Shown: piece by piece, positions 4,613 to 49,789 of the stretch
How positions within the stretch are numbered: position 1 is the first letter of the stretch
How the letters are laid out: each line of letters starts with the position of its first letter
Assembly (NCBI RefSeq): GCF_003053845.1
Contig: NZ_QAYG01000005.1
Span: forward strand, 124,001-188,000
Direction: 5' to 3'
DNA: 64,000 nucleotides
Origin: Breoghania corrubedonensis
GTDB taxonomy: Bacteria > Pseudomonadota > Alphaproteobacteria > Rhizobiales > Stappiaceae
Notes under the pieces: generated by a model
Database searches by the model: none
Seen by the model: only the letters and a program-made list of their open reading frames with translations
Told to the model about the DNA's origin: nothing
Program-made: the position numbers and the translations under genes

Positions 4613-4689
<77 letters not shown>

Positions 4690-5229: not shown

Positions 5230-5306
5230 TGGTCGGGGCAGCAGGATTTGAACCTGCGACCCCCTGGTCCCAAACCAGGTGCGCTACCAGACTGCGCCAT
5301 GCCCCG
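5230..5306 (-). tRNA. tRNA-Pro (anticodon TGG)
   Basis: On the minus strand there is an acceptor stem CGGGGCA/TGCCCCG, a D arm with GGCGCAGTCTGGTAGCGC, an anticodon stem CCTGG/CCAGG around loop TTTGGGA, a T arm with GGTTCAAATCC, discriminator A and an encoded CCA (5230-5232). The anticodon TGG reads CCN proline codons. Confidence 0.97.
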
Positions 5307-45637: not shown

Positions 45638-46129
45638 CGCGACCGTCCTCATTCGCGGCCCATCTCCTGCCTACGTGAAAAGTATAAATATGTATCCCTA
45701 TCTTCCGGAAACGGGAGACTGGAAGGGGAAAGCCTGACCAACACGTGGCGACGTGCAGATGCGAGCAAGTAAGCGGTGCGAGAAATCACTAGGATTGATA
45801 GATCATTTTGATATGAGAATCAATCTGTCTTCCGTAAAAAATGGGAGTGAAGTGAAATACATATAGGTAGCATTACGTAAATTATGAATAGCTTGTGAAT
45901 GCTGGCGCGTTGCCTGTGGATATGGGGCGTGGTTTTGCACAGGTGCCGGATCGGCAAAAAAATTTCTCGATGGCAAATTACCTCTTGCAATCGAAAGCAA
46001 ATGGAGCGATTTCAGTCCCGCCCAAATTCGCACGTGCCCGTGGTCGTCCACACTGAACAAGGGCCGTCGCAGCGGGGAGGGGCTTCCCACCGCCTGCGGC
46101 ACACCGGACGGCTTAAAGCAACGACGTAA
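45638..46129. other. AT-richer intergenic region upstream of the odc leader
   Basis: From about 45660 to 46010 the DNA is distinctly AT-rich compared with all flanking genes. A nested inverted repeat is visible: GATTGAT (45793-45799) with ATCAATC (45819-45825), enclosing ATCA/TGAT. CCTGTG and CACAGG form another near 45910-45945. No coding frame is supported. The odc promoter is probably near 46040-46120. Whether a small RNA lies here cannot be decided from one sequence. Confidence 0.4.
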
Positions 46130-46375
46130 GAGGGCTTTTTTGGTCTCTTCCGGGTTTTCCAACGCCCGGGGTCACTGAAGAGGCACTTATTACCTCCTTG
46201 CCGGCCGTGCGGAAGGGTCTTCCCCCTTTCCAAGCCAAGGCATCACACGCGGGACGGCTTTTCGGTTTTGACCGATGGCTCGACCGACCGCGCGATGAAC
46301 TGCAGCGATTGCCGGCGTCTCCACAGCGCGGGCAAGGCGAAGTCACATCCGCAACCCTGCGACGTGATACGTAAA
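46130..46375 (+). ncRNA. Structured 5' leader of odc, fits the alphaproteobacterial speF RNA element
   Basis: The long leader before ornithine decarboxylase has several clear stems. CTCTTC (46145-46150) pairs with GAAGAG (46177-46182) around a nested CCGGG/CCCGG pair (46150-46169). A GGAAGGG/CCCTTTCC stem follows near 46210-46235, and a CGGT/ACCG stem near 46263-46275. The speF motif (Corbino and colleagues) is known upstream of ornithine decarboxylase genes in Alphaproteobacteria. Location, size and gene match. A GGGCTTTTTT tract sits just upstream (46127-46139). Boundaries are approximate and the consensus was not checked. Confidence 0.6.
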
Positions 46376-46393
46376 ATGGATTGGGGAACAGCC

Positions 46394-47524
46394 ATGACCC
46401 AACGCATCCGCGACTTCCTGCGTACCCGACGAGACGACGGCCCGTGCCTCGTCGTCGACCTCGATGTCATCCGCCAGAACTACGAGACCTTCGCCCGCGC
46501 TCTGCCGGACACGAATGTCTATTATGCGGTGAAGGCGAACCCGGCACCGGAAGTGCTGAACCTGCTGGCGCGTGCCGGCTCGTCCTTCGATTGCGCCTCC
46601 GTCGGCGAAATCGAGATGGTTCTGGCCACCGGCGCCACCGCGAACCGCATCTCCTACGGCAACACCATCAAGAAGGAACGCGACATCGAGCGCGCCTATC
46701 AGCTTGGTGTGCGCCTCTTCGCCGTCGATTGCGAGGCCGAGGTGGAGAAGATCGCCCGCGTTGCGCCGGGCGCCAAGGTTTTCTGCCGCATCCTGTGCGA
46801 TGGCGCGGGCGCGGACTGGCCGCTGTCGCGCAAGTTCGGCTGCGAGCCGGCGATGGCGCCGAAGGTGCTGGAGCTCGCCCATCGCTCCGGCCTGCGCGCT
46901 TATGGCGTGTCCTTCCATGTCGGTTCCCAGCAGTCCAATGTCGATGCCTGGGACGGCGCTCTCGCCTCCGCCGCCGCGATCTTCCGCGAAATGGCGGCGC
47001 GCGGCATTCATCTCTCCATGGTCAACATGGGCGGCGGGTTCCCGACCGACTACCTGAAGAAGATGCCGGGCGTCGCCAGCTACGGCGAAGCGATCTTCCA
47101 GGCGCTGTCGCGCCACTTCGGCAACCGCTTGCCGGAAACGATCATCGAGCCCGGTCGTGGCATGGTCGGCAATGCCGGCATGATCGAGGCCGAGGTCGTG
47201 TTGATCTCGAAGAAGTCCGACGAGGATACCCTTCGCTGGGTCTATCTCGATATCGGCAAGTTCCATGGCCTTGCCGAGACCATGGACGAGGCGATCCGCT
47301 ATCCGATCCGCACGCCGAAGGACGGCGACGACACCGCGCCGTGTGTGCTCGCAGGCCCCACCTGCGACAGCGTCGACGTGCTCTACGAGAAGGTGCCCTA
47401 CGAGTTGCCCGTGTCGCTGTCGATCGGCGACAAGGTGCTGATCGAGGCCTGCGGCGCCTATACGACCACCTATTCGTCGGTCGGCTTCAACGGCTTCGCG
47501 CCGCTCGCCGCCTACGTCATCTGA
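46394..47524 (+). CDS. Ornithine decarboxylase (PLP-dependent, alanine-racemase fold, group IV)
   Basis: 376 aa. PLP Lys is in YYAVKANPAPE (Lys48). Further markers are FDCASVGEIEMVL, ISYGNTIKKE, FHVGSQQSN, MGGGFPTDY, the EPGRGMVGNAG phosphate-binding loop, GPTCDSVDVLYE (the active-site Cys) and IEACGAYTTTYS. It converts ornithine to putrescine; some family members also take lysine. The start at 46394 has GGGGA upstream. An in-frame ATG at 46376 would add six residues. The leader is a candidate speF RNA, so polyamine-responsive control is likely. A GNAT gene and homospermidine synthase follow on the same strand. Confidence 0.94.
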   Translation: MTQRIRDFLRTRRDDGPCLVVDLDVIRQNYETFARALPDTNVYYAVKANPAPEVLNLLARAGSSFDCASVGEIEMVLATGATANRISYGNTIKKERDIERAYQLGVRLFAVDCEAEVEKIARVAPGAKVFCRILCDGAGADWPLSRKFGCEPAMAPKVLELAHRSGLRAYGVSFHVGSQQSNVDAWDGALASAAAIFREMAARGIHLSMVNMGGGFPTDYLKKMPGVASYGEAIFQALSRHFGNRLPETIIEPGRGMVGNAGMIEAEVVLISKKSDEDTLRWVYLDIGKFHGLAETMDEAIRYPIRTPKDGDDTAPCVLAGPTCDSVDVLYEKVPYELPVSLSIGDKVLIEACGAYTTTYSSVGFNGFAPLAAYVI

Positions 47525-47544
47525 CCGGTTGAGGGACTGGCGCG

Positions 47545-48108
47545 ATGATCGATGTCGTTGACGAGGCGCCGTGGCATGCCGCGGCGCGCGAAGACCTGCT
47601 CGACCGCGTGTTCGGGCCCTCGCGGTTCGAAAAGCCGTCCGAGCGTTTGCGTGAAGGCCGTCTTCCCGAGATCGCGCTGTCCGCGATAGAGGAGGGCGAA
47701 CTTGTCGGCACCGTGCGCTTGTGGCGTGCGGTGACCGGCGATGGCCGGGCCGTTCTGCTGCTTGGTCCTCTCGCGGTCTCGCCCGTGCTTCAGGGGGCGG
47801 GGCTTGGCGGGCGGCTGATGCGGGCCGCGTTGAACAAGGCGGCGGTCGGCGGGCATGAGGCGGTGATCCTGGTCGGCGATCCGGCCTACTATGCCCGCTT
47901 CGGCTTCACCGCAGCCCATACCGGCGCTCTGTCGATGCCCGGTGCCTACGATCAGCACCGCCTTCTGGCCCACGAGCTTGCGACCGGCGCCCTGGACGGA
48001 GCCTCCGGCACCCTTCGCGCTGCCGCTCCGCTTGCCACGCAGCATTTCGCGGCTGTCGAGGGGGCGAAAGTCGGTGCCATTCTCAAACCCTGGCCGCCGG
48101 TGCGCTGA
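47545..48108 (+). CDS. GNAT-family N-acetyltransferase
   Basis: 187 aa. The acetyl-CoA motif A is visible as LLGPLAVSPVLQGAGLGGRLMRAAL, with VILVGDPAYYARFGF after it (motif B and the YYARFGF segment of the YhbS-like subgroup). The N-terminal part is typical and the last 30 residues are Ala-rich. Substrate unknown. It lies 20 bases downstream of odc and upstream of hss, so it is probably cotranscribed with odc. A polyamine or polyamine-precursor acetyltransferase would fit context but is not shown by sequence. Confidence 0.88.
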   Translation: MIDVVDEAPWHAAAREDLLDRVFGPSRFEKPSERLREGRLPEIALSAIEEGELVGTVRLWRAVTGDGRAVLLLGPLAVSPVLQGAGLGGRLMRAALNKAAVGGHEAVILVGDPAYYARFGFTAAHTGALSMPGAYDQHRLLAHELATGALDGASGTLRAAAPLATQHFAAVEGAKVGAILKPWPPVR

Positions 48109-48358
48109 GCACCGGCGTAACGGGTCGCGCGGAGGGACATCGTTTGGGCGATTGTCCCGTCCGCCGGATGTGCGCCATTCGGCGGCAGACCGGGCTTGCC
48201 GGTTGACAGCCTCGACAAGGCTTGCCTAAGCCTATTCGGCAACTGCGGGAAACCGCACTCCTTGTCGGCTCGCGAATACCGCGACCTGTGGCCGACCTTC
48301 CGATCGCGAGCCGGATGAGGCCCCGCGATTCCTTTTCCGAACGAAACGGAGGACAACG

Positions 48359-49789
48359 ATGGCCGACTGGCCAGTTCACGCCACGATAACCGGCCCGATC
48401 GTCATGATCGGCCTCGGCTCCATCGGTTCCGGCACGTTGCCCCTGATCGAGCGACACTTCAATTTCGACAAGACCCGCTTCACCGTCATCTCGCCCGACA
48501 CCGCGCATCGCGCGCTGGTGGACGAGCGCGGCTACCGCTACGACGAGACGACGCTGACCCCGCAAAACTATCGCGACGTCCTGAAGCCGCTGCTCAGCGA
48601 GGGTGAGGGGCAGGCATTCTGCGTCAACCTGTCCTGCGATACCTCCTCGCTCGACATCATGAAGCTGTGCCGCGAGATCGGCGCGCTCTACATCGACACG
48701 GTGACGGAGCCGTGGCTGGGTTTCTACTTCAACACCGAGGCCGACAACGCGAAGCGCACGAACTATGCGCTGCGCGAAGCGGTGCGTGGGGAAAAGCGGA
48801 ACAACCCCGGCGGCACGACGGCGGTTTCGTGCTGCGGCGCCAATCCGGGCATGGTTTCGTGGTTCGTCAAGCAGGGGCTGATCGACATCGCCCGCGACAC
48901 CGGCCTTGAGACCGAGGTGCCGACAACGCGCGAGGGCTGGGCGGCGCTGATGCGCGATCTGGGGGTCAAGGGCGTCCACATCGCCGAGCGCGACACGCAG
49001 CTCGCCGATACGCCCAAGCCGCTCGATGAGTTCTGGAACACATGGTCCGTCGACGGCTTCATCGCGGAAGGGTTCCAGCCTTCGGAGCTCGGCTGGGGAA
49101 CGCATGAGAAATGGATCCCGAAAAACGCGTCCGGCTTCGACACCGGCTGCCAGGCGGCGATCTTCCTGGAGCAACCCGGCGCCGATACCCGCGTGCGCAC
49201 CTGGTGCCCGACACCGGGCGCGCAATACGGATTTCTCGTCACGCATAACGAGTCGATCTCGATCGCCGACTATTACACGGTGCGCGAGAACGGGAAGGCG
49301 GTCTACCGTCCGACCTGTCACTACGCCTACCATCCGGCCAATTGCGCGGTGCTTTCGCTGCACGAACTGTTTGGGCGCGCCGGCAAGATCCAGGAGACGT
49401 TCCATCTTCTGGAAGAGGACGAAATCGTTTCCGGCTGCGATGAGTTGGGCGTGCTGATCTACGGCCACGCGAAGAATGCCTACTGGTATGGCTCCCAGCT
49501 TTCCATAGAGGAAACCCGCGAGATCGCGCCCTACCAGAACGCCACCGGCCTGCAGGTGACCTCCGCCGTCATCGCCGGCATGGTCTGGGCGCTGGAAAAC
49601 CCGCAAGCGGGCATCGTGGAGACCGACGAGATGGACTTCCAGCGGTGTCTGGAGATCCAGAAGCCCTATCTGGGACCAGTAAAGGGTTACTACACCGACT
49701 GGACTCCGCTCGATGATCGTCCGGGGCTCTTTCCCGAAGACCTCGACACCAGCGATCCCTGGCAGTTCCGCAACATTCTGGTGCGCTAG
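48359..49789 (+). CDS. hss: Homospermidine synthase
   Basis: 476 aa. An N-terminal NAD-binding Rossmann segment (IVMIGLGSIGSGTLPLIERHF) is followed by FCVNLSCDTSSLDIMKLCRE, YIDTVTEPW and CCGANPGMVSWFVKQGL, all diagnostic of bacterial Hss. It makes sym-homospermidine from two putrescine molecules using NAD+ as prosthetic group. Homospermidine is a major polyamine of many Hyphomicrobiales. The start at 48359 follows ACGGAGGA. It lies 250 bases after the GNAT gene, so it probably has its own promoter. A terminator follows the stop. Confidence 0.96.
   Translation: MADWPVHATITGPIVMIGLGSIGSGTLPLIERHFNFDKTRFTVISPDTAHRALVDERGYRYDETTLTPQNYRDVLKPLLSEGEGQAFCVNLSCDTSSLDIMKLCREIGALYIDTVTEPWLGFYFNTEADNAKRTNYALREAVRGEKRNNPGGTTAVSCCGANPGMVSWFVKQGLIDIARDTGLETEVPTTREGWAALMRDLGVKGVHIAERDTQLADTPKPLDEFWNTWSVDGFIAEGFQPSELGWGTHEKWIPKNASGFDTGCQAAIFLEQPGADTRVRTWCPTPGAQYGFLVTHNESISIADYYTVRENGKAVYRPTCHYAYHPANCAVLSLHELFGRAGKIQETFHLLEEDEIVSGCDELGVLIYGHAKNAYWYGSQLSIEETREIAPYQNATGLQVTSAVIAGMVWALENPQAGIVETDEMDFQRCLEIQKPYLGPVKGYYTDWTPLDDRPGLFPEDLDTSDPWQFRNILVR

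Follow-up and report, generated by a model that had tools for sequence, protein, structure and literature searches.

The odc gene and its leader

The window analyzed here, a 64,000-nucleotide stretch of the Breoghania corrubedonensis genome, contains an ornithine decarboxylase gene, odc, that is followed by genes for a GNAT acetyltransferase and a homospermidine synthase and preceded by a long RNA leader (Table 1). Two Rfam families, ar45 and speF, match this leader above their gathering scores in covariance-model searches with cmscan. The first-pass annotation had proposed a speF-type leader of family RF00518 before odc and named cmscan as the way to check it; that search returned a significant match. 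A structured leader does lie upstream of odc, whose product is a PLP-dependent decarboxylase with lysine and ornithine decarboxylases as its nearest solved structures, and the leader's position 5' of a COG0019-type ornithine decarboxylase gene is the gene context expected of RF00518. The locus is an ordinary new member of the known families speF and ar45.

Table 1. Features of the odc leader and its surroundings, in window positions.
Feature	Position	Strand	Details
Leader promoter (predicted)	45984-46013	+	-35 CTTGCA (45984-45989), 18-nt spacer, -10 GATTTC (46008-46013)
ar45 (RF02347), here read as the 5' half of the odc leader	46020-46139	+	cmscan 48.1 bits, cut-off 40
State 1 helices	46020-46135	+	GCCC (46020-46023) with GGGC (46132-46135); UCG:CGA; UGC:GCA; 46043-46049 with 46106-46112
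Long-range helix	46029-46211	+	CGCACG (46029-46034) with CGUGCG (46206-46211); 55-65 of 65 sequences canonical per pair
State 2 bridging helices	46118-46201	+	GCAAcGAcGUAAG (46118-46130) with 46189-46201; GCUUUUUUGGU (46134-46144) with ACUGAAGAGGC (46174-46184); P1 hairpin (46150-46169) on top
U6 tract	46136-46141	+	directly 3' of GGGC; conserved in most families
speF leader (RF00518, Rfam limits)	46148-46271	+	cmscan 49 bits, cut-off 37, E 4.3e-9 (64 kb)
H3 hairpin	46315-46329	+	GCGU-CUCCACA-GCGC, UCCA in loop; 4-bp stem here; 65 nt before odc start codon
odc ribosome binding site	46383-46387	+	GGGGA (sequence)
odc, PLP-dependent ornithine/lysine decarboxylase	46394-47524	+	Pfam PF02784 and PF00278
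GNAT acetyltransferase	47545-48108	+	Pfam
Homospermidine synthase	48359-49789	+	phmmer E 3.6e-236 against solved homospermidine synthases

The span first assigned to the element, 46130-46375, cuts it: the conserved 5' end and the promoter lie at 45984-46023, and the true start falls about 110 nt further 5', taking in Rfam's ar45. An additional GGGCTTTTTT tract had been singled out 5' of the first stem. This tract is present at 46132-46141 and deeply conserved, but it is no separate feature: it is the 3' end of ar45, where it closes the ar45 fold and also takes part in an 11-bp helix with ACUGAAGAGGC of speF.

The clustering of odc with the GNAT and homospermidine synthase genes makes homospermidine a natural candidate ligand. 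The cluster (46394-49789) recurs in part of the relatives sampled: among 20 leader-carrying genomes, a GNAT gene lies within about 5 kb of odc in 16 and a homospermidine synthase gene in 12. Elsewhere in the window, cmscan finds two tRNA genes on the minus strand (4616-4689 and 5233-5306), unrelated to the leader.

A reading frame beginning at a TTG (46268-46393) runs in phase into odc, giving an ORF of 46268-47524. The first-pass annotation had noted this frame and raised the possibility of translational control; the frame exists, but it is not conserved among relatives. In-phase frames upstream of odc have a median of 48 codons, compared with 44.5 and 31 in the other frames, and the speF-to-odc distances divide over the three frames as 33, 35 and 35, which is the chance expectation. 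With frame openness and distances both as expected by chance, translational control through this frame is without comparative support, and we reject an in-phase extension of odc. It is likewise highly improbable that a leader peptide within the element senses ornithine or arginine, as enterobacterial ORF34/SpeFL does. An SD-like AAGAGG does precede an invariant UUG (46198-46200), and further UUG starts recur; the recurring starts, however, are only UUGs buried in invariant RNA blocks, the ORF lengths scatter from 11 to 98 codons, and the frames are broken by one-base indels. Among the relatives compared, we found no conserved translated ORF of the ORF34/SpeFL type in the leader.

Constant association of ar45 and speF

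Models of the two families (RF00518 and RF02347) were run against 297 genomes of the order, and about 150 genomes entered the comparison. Among the matches listed, ar45 and speF lie on the same contig and strand, 6-12 nt apart, in all 123 genomes that match both, and the gap is exactly 8 nt in 96 of these 123. The four genomes that match ar45 alone all carry odc downstream, and no ar45 was found away from odc among the genomes checked. The surroundings of the leader were read in 105 genomes of the order, and odc adjoins it in 104; the one exception is a weak match in genome G033 (L115).

A covariance model of the joint ar45-speF core, R1, matches 147 of the 297 genomes of the order, with one match each, and 17 of 385 genomes across the class; since many of the matching genomes belong to its training set, these counts measure reach within the clade and not independence. 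Two Rfam speF matches are weak, the second one in genome G265 (G265:C30:408282-408384, 27.8 bits) and that at L115 (G033:C3:166817-166907, 26.6 bits). Both are absent from the R1 results, L115 has no ornithine decarboxylase gene beside it, and both are probably false positives.

Upstream of ar45, a promoter-like pair resembling CTTGat / TATmTC stands at a fixed distance of 6-7 nt from the 5' GCCC in 72 of 73 relatives, with a mean match of 8.8 out of 12 positions in relatives versus 6.5 in shuffles; the window's own copy matches the relatives' pattern weakly. A scan for E. coli-type promoters and terminators listed no plus-strand site. Because the pair stands at a fixed distance from the conserved 5' GCCC, transcription of the leader most likely starts at about 46019 (46018-46020), judging from sequence conservation. 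Together, the constant 6-12 nt spacing and the single conserved promoter before ar45 lead us to read ar45 and speF as one leader of about 370 nt, and suggest that ar45 forms the odc leader's first half and is no separate small RNA.

The prevailing view in the literature is a different one. In published work, ar45 is described as independently expressed, possibly trans-acting and Hfq-bound (PMC7717549). On such an account, ar45 would be a trans-acting sRNA with its own terminator, speF would be a separate neighboring leader, and transcription of odc would come from a second promoter or from read-through. Sinorhizobium meliloti ar45 co-precipitates with Hfq, and Bartonella ar45 (Bbar45) runs as a separate band, a discrete transcript, with speF on a transcript of more than 700 nt (PMC7717549); in Methylosinus, ar45 was mapped as its own unit (PMC12403871). 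A 325-nt RNA labeled speF has been reported in Mesorhizobium (PMC5596092), and it is long enough to span both ar45 and speF. Against two independent RNAs stand the constant spacing, the confinement of ar45 to odc among the genomes checked and the covarying helices, described below, that join the two families, and we therefore think this account unlikely. A trans role may nonetheless be carried by ar45 on top of its role as a leader.

Competing folds of the ar45 3' strand

Rfam folds ar45 on itself, ending in a GCCC:GGGC stem followed by the U6 tract; RNAalifold on a joint alignment instead pairs the ar45 3' strand and the U tract with speF. Both arrangements are conserved. In the self-closed, terminator-like fold (state 1), the GCCC:GGGC pairing is invariant, canonical in 65 of 65 sequences, and when the column pairs of the region are ranked unguided, 46048-46107 covaries best. 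The distant leader L146 replaces GCCC:GGGC with a compensatory terminator-like stem, CCGUC:GACGG. Because the GCCC:GGGC stem is only 4 bp long, does not vary within the order and encloses more than 100 nt, it would make a weak intrinsic terminator. GGGC-U6 paired with GCCC is predicted in 90 of 90 RNAs truncated at this point, with a stem of 4 bp and internal loops, and a simple terminator scan limited to loops of 3-8 nt lists none at U6.

Within the U tract, three positions keep a U facing G in 55, 59 and 68 of the 70 sequences aligned, and C would pair better there; we take this as a sign that U itself is favored, as a terminator would require. Some families carry CCUUUCUGG in place of U6. 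Near its GCAACGACG, the distant leader L147 (genome G332) has lost the U tract (GGGCUCCCUGUCC) and is still predicted to fold into a comparable bridged hairpin, making it a natural leader without the stop signal.

In the bridged fold (state 2), the 11-nt GCUUUUUUGGU pairs end to end with ACUGAAGAGGC, and GCAAcGAcGUA, the strand represented by GCAAcGAcGUAAG in the window, pairs with UACnUCnUUGC. Across 70 sequences, five of them from outside the order, pairing reaches 98.0% in the first helix and 96.4% in the second, compared with 39-56% when the whole structure is slid by 1-3 columns. The second-best covarying pair, 46127-46192, crosses the border between the two families (UA 33, GC 21, GU 4, AU 1). 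Mapped on an ODC protein tree, the 5' side of this pair changes 7 times, the 3' side 8 times and the pair jointly 8 times, so that the two sides change together; an independent-pairs test on the same tree was not significant, having too few supported contrasts. Inspection by eye adds two cases of matched loss: in three loci of the genus g65 (L082, L099, L104), U6 becomes U5 as GAAG becomes GAG, with one U and the opposite A lost, and in two loci of another genus, g46 (L054, L051), GG becomes G as ACUG becomes AUG, with one G and the opposite C lost. L146 has C-G in place of U-A in its bridging helix.

Around these helices, CGCACG near the 5' end can form a long-range helix with CGUGCG, in which 46032-46208 shows one double change and three changes to or from G-U, and which a single lineage from outside the order (L127, L141, L145) does not keep intact. 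The Rfam speF stem GGCA:UGCC (46183-46186 with 46199-46202) shares strands with the bridging helices. As judged from these conserved pairings, the 3' strand of ar45 has two mutually exclusive partners: its own 5' end, or the speF strands.

Folding predictions for 90 relatives agree with such a switch. In RNA ending at the U tract, GCCC:GGGC has a median predicted probability of 0.997, and this falls to about 1e-5 once speF is added, with the two bridging helices then above 0.5 in 82 and 89 relatives; the predicted fold switches upon speF addition in 90 of 90 genomes. With shuffled downstream tails, GCCC:GGGC stays above 0.5 in 35 of 124 cases, versus 0 of 31 with the real downstream sequence; since the shuffled tails keep the stem at only this rate, its loss in the longer RNA is only partly specific.

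Further downstream, the leader contains an additional hairpin, H3. A hairpin of at least 5 bp with UCCA in its loop occurs in 81 of 102 leaders, compared with a mean of 6.9 and a maximum of 16 in shuffles, and its stems vary widely in sequence across relatives while keeping their pairing. The same UCCA letters stand in the loop of the P1 hairpin (UCCAA, 46158-46162), and their presence in both loops might mark a repeated protein site. We also considered whether the H3 loop (UCUCCA) might pair with the ribosome binding site of odc, and make no such claim: the two are complementary, but variant loops retain UCCA only, and by eye we saw no co-change between the loop and the ribosome binding site.

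These features allow a post-transcriptional account, in which a protein or RNase would recognize a site made up of the bridged fold and the UCCA-loop hairpins and so govern how odc is translated or how stable its RNA is, with ar45 as a fragment left by 5' processing. In its favor, the bridged fold is predicted to be far more stable in full-length RNA, H3 lies close to the odc start codon, UCCA is repeated in the two loops, the odc ribosome binding site is predicted to be paired in the full leader (a fold computed for the window only), and no ligand was found by Corbino et al. 2005 (PMC1273637). It leaves unexplained, however, why U is kept opposite G and why a GCCC:GGGC stem stands just before the U tract. 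We hold it to be possible but rather unlikely.

Attenuation as a model for odc control

We favor, with moderate confidence, a model in which ar45 and speF form a single cis-acting odc leader that controls the gene by transcription attenuation and refolds in the process. Sequence comparison shows that the two make up one unit behind one promoter, and it shows the pairs of either state and the additional hairpin; on this basis we propose the following course of events. RNA polymerase would start at about 46019, and the RNA 5' end (GCCC..UCG..UGC) would pair with GCAACGACG..GGGC, immediately followed by the U6 tract. With state 1 in place, some polymerases would stop at 46136-46141 and release an ar45 RNA of about 120 nt. 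Once polymerase had passed U6, speF would take over the strand through GCUUUUUUGGU:ACUGAAGAGGC and GCAAcGAcGUA:UACnUCnUUGC, the freed 5' end could pair with CGUGCG, and the refolded, stable leader, with a UCCA-loop hairpin near the start codon, would allow odc to be expressed. The transcripts published for ar45 and speF in Bartonella, Methylosinus and Mesorhizobium fit such attenuation. Its weak points are the 4-bp GCCC:GGGC stem and the U tracts that are variant (CCUUUCUGG families) or lost (L147).

In this organism, termination at the U tract would presumably be regulated. The bridging partner cannot itself prevent termination, because it is transcribed after the U tract; since it is made only past the stop point, a factor or ligand must decide earlier. 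The signal may be a product of the odc-homospermidine synthase pathway, such as homospermidine, or a protein. In published assays, speF RNA bound none of six metabolites (ornithine, lysine, diaminopimelate, putrescine, cadaverine and spermidine), and homospermidine, the product of the linked synthase, was not among them (PMC1273637). A more specific proposal, that ar45-speF is an attenuator for homospermidine or a related product, which binds only the nascent RNA before the U tract, strikes us as decidedly unlikely to be correct. If it were, ar45 would be a released stop product and no sRNA gene, and a leader that has been an orphan for 20 years would turn out to be a polyamine riboswitch.

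The RNA in the window is the same as that described with the same gene by Corbino et al. 2005 (PMC1273637), who reported that conservation begins at a putative start site and takes in a stem with one large insertion, followed by an 80-nt bulged stem-loop; this corresponds to the bridged fold here. Because that description already held the extended element and the bulged stem-loop, the bridged fold is no discovery of ours. The present Rfam speF model, unlike the extended leader, covers the 3' part only. A competing terminator is not mentioned in the speF section of the 2005 paper, in contrast to our two-state reading, and its authors could assign no structure to the region ahead of the start codon, in which we locate H3. 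Family RF02347 likewise matches the window above its cut-off, with the same U tract and self-fold; it is described as an sRNA family, whereas in our comparison it always makes up the leader's 5' half, with a 3' strand that alternatively pairs with speF. What appears to be new is the joint two-state reading: the clash between the bridged fold and the ar45 stem, the constant joining of ar45 and speF in one unit, the covariation across their border, and H3. In the literature consulted, which leaves aside del Val et al. 2012, cited in PMC7717549 as the source of ar45, we found no paper that states any of these.

The Salmonella speF leader with ORF34 (PMC6386406) offers a parallel. It too lies upstream of an ornithine decarboxylase gene and has alternative structures and premature termination, as proposed here, with a premature product of about 157 nt. 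Termination in Salmonella needs a translated ORF and Rho, whereas in the leader studied here we found no conserved ORF, and its proposed stop is a stem followed by a U tract. The Clostridioides difficile RNA called 'speF' is possibly a different RNA, in the judgment of the reviewers of that report (PMC11477304).

If ar45 and speF are one attenuator, the earlier binding assay, which used RNA from -400 to +3 (PMC1273637), would have examined a state already beyond the stop point. Throughout the Alphaproteobacteria with ar45, its description as an sRNA would then have to be revised.

How speF works has, to our knowledge, not been explained since 2005. Read as a single attenuator, two unexplained RNA families would become one testable system.
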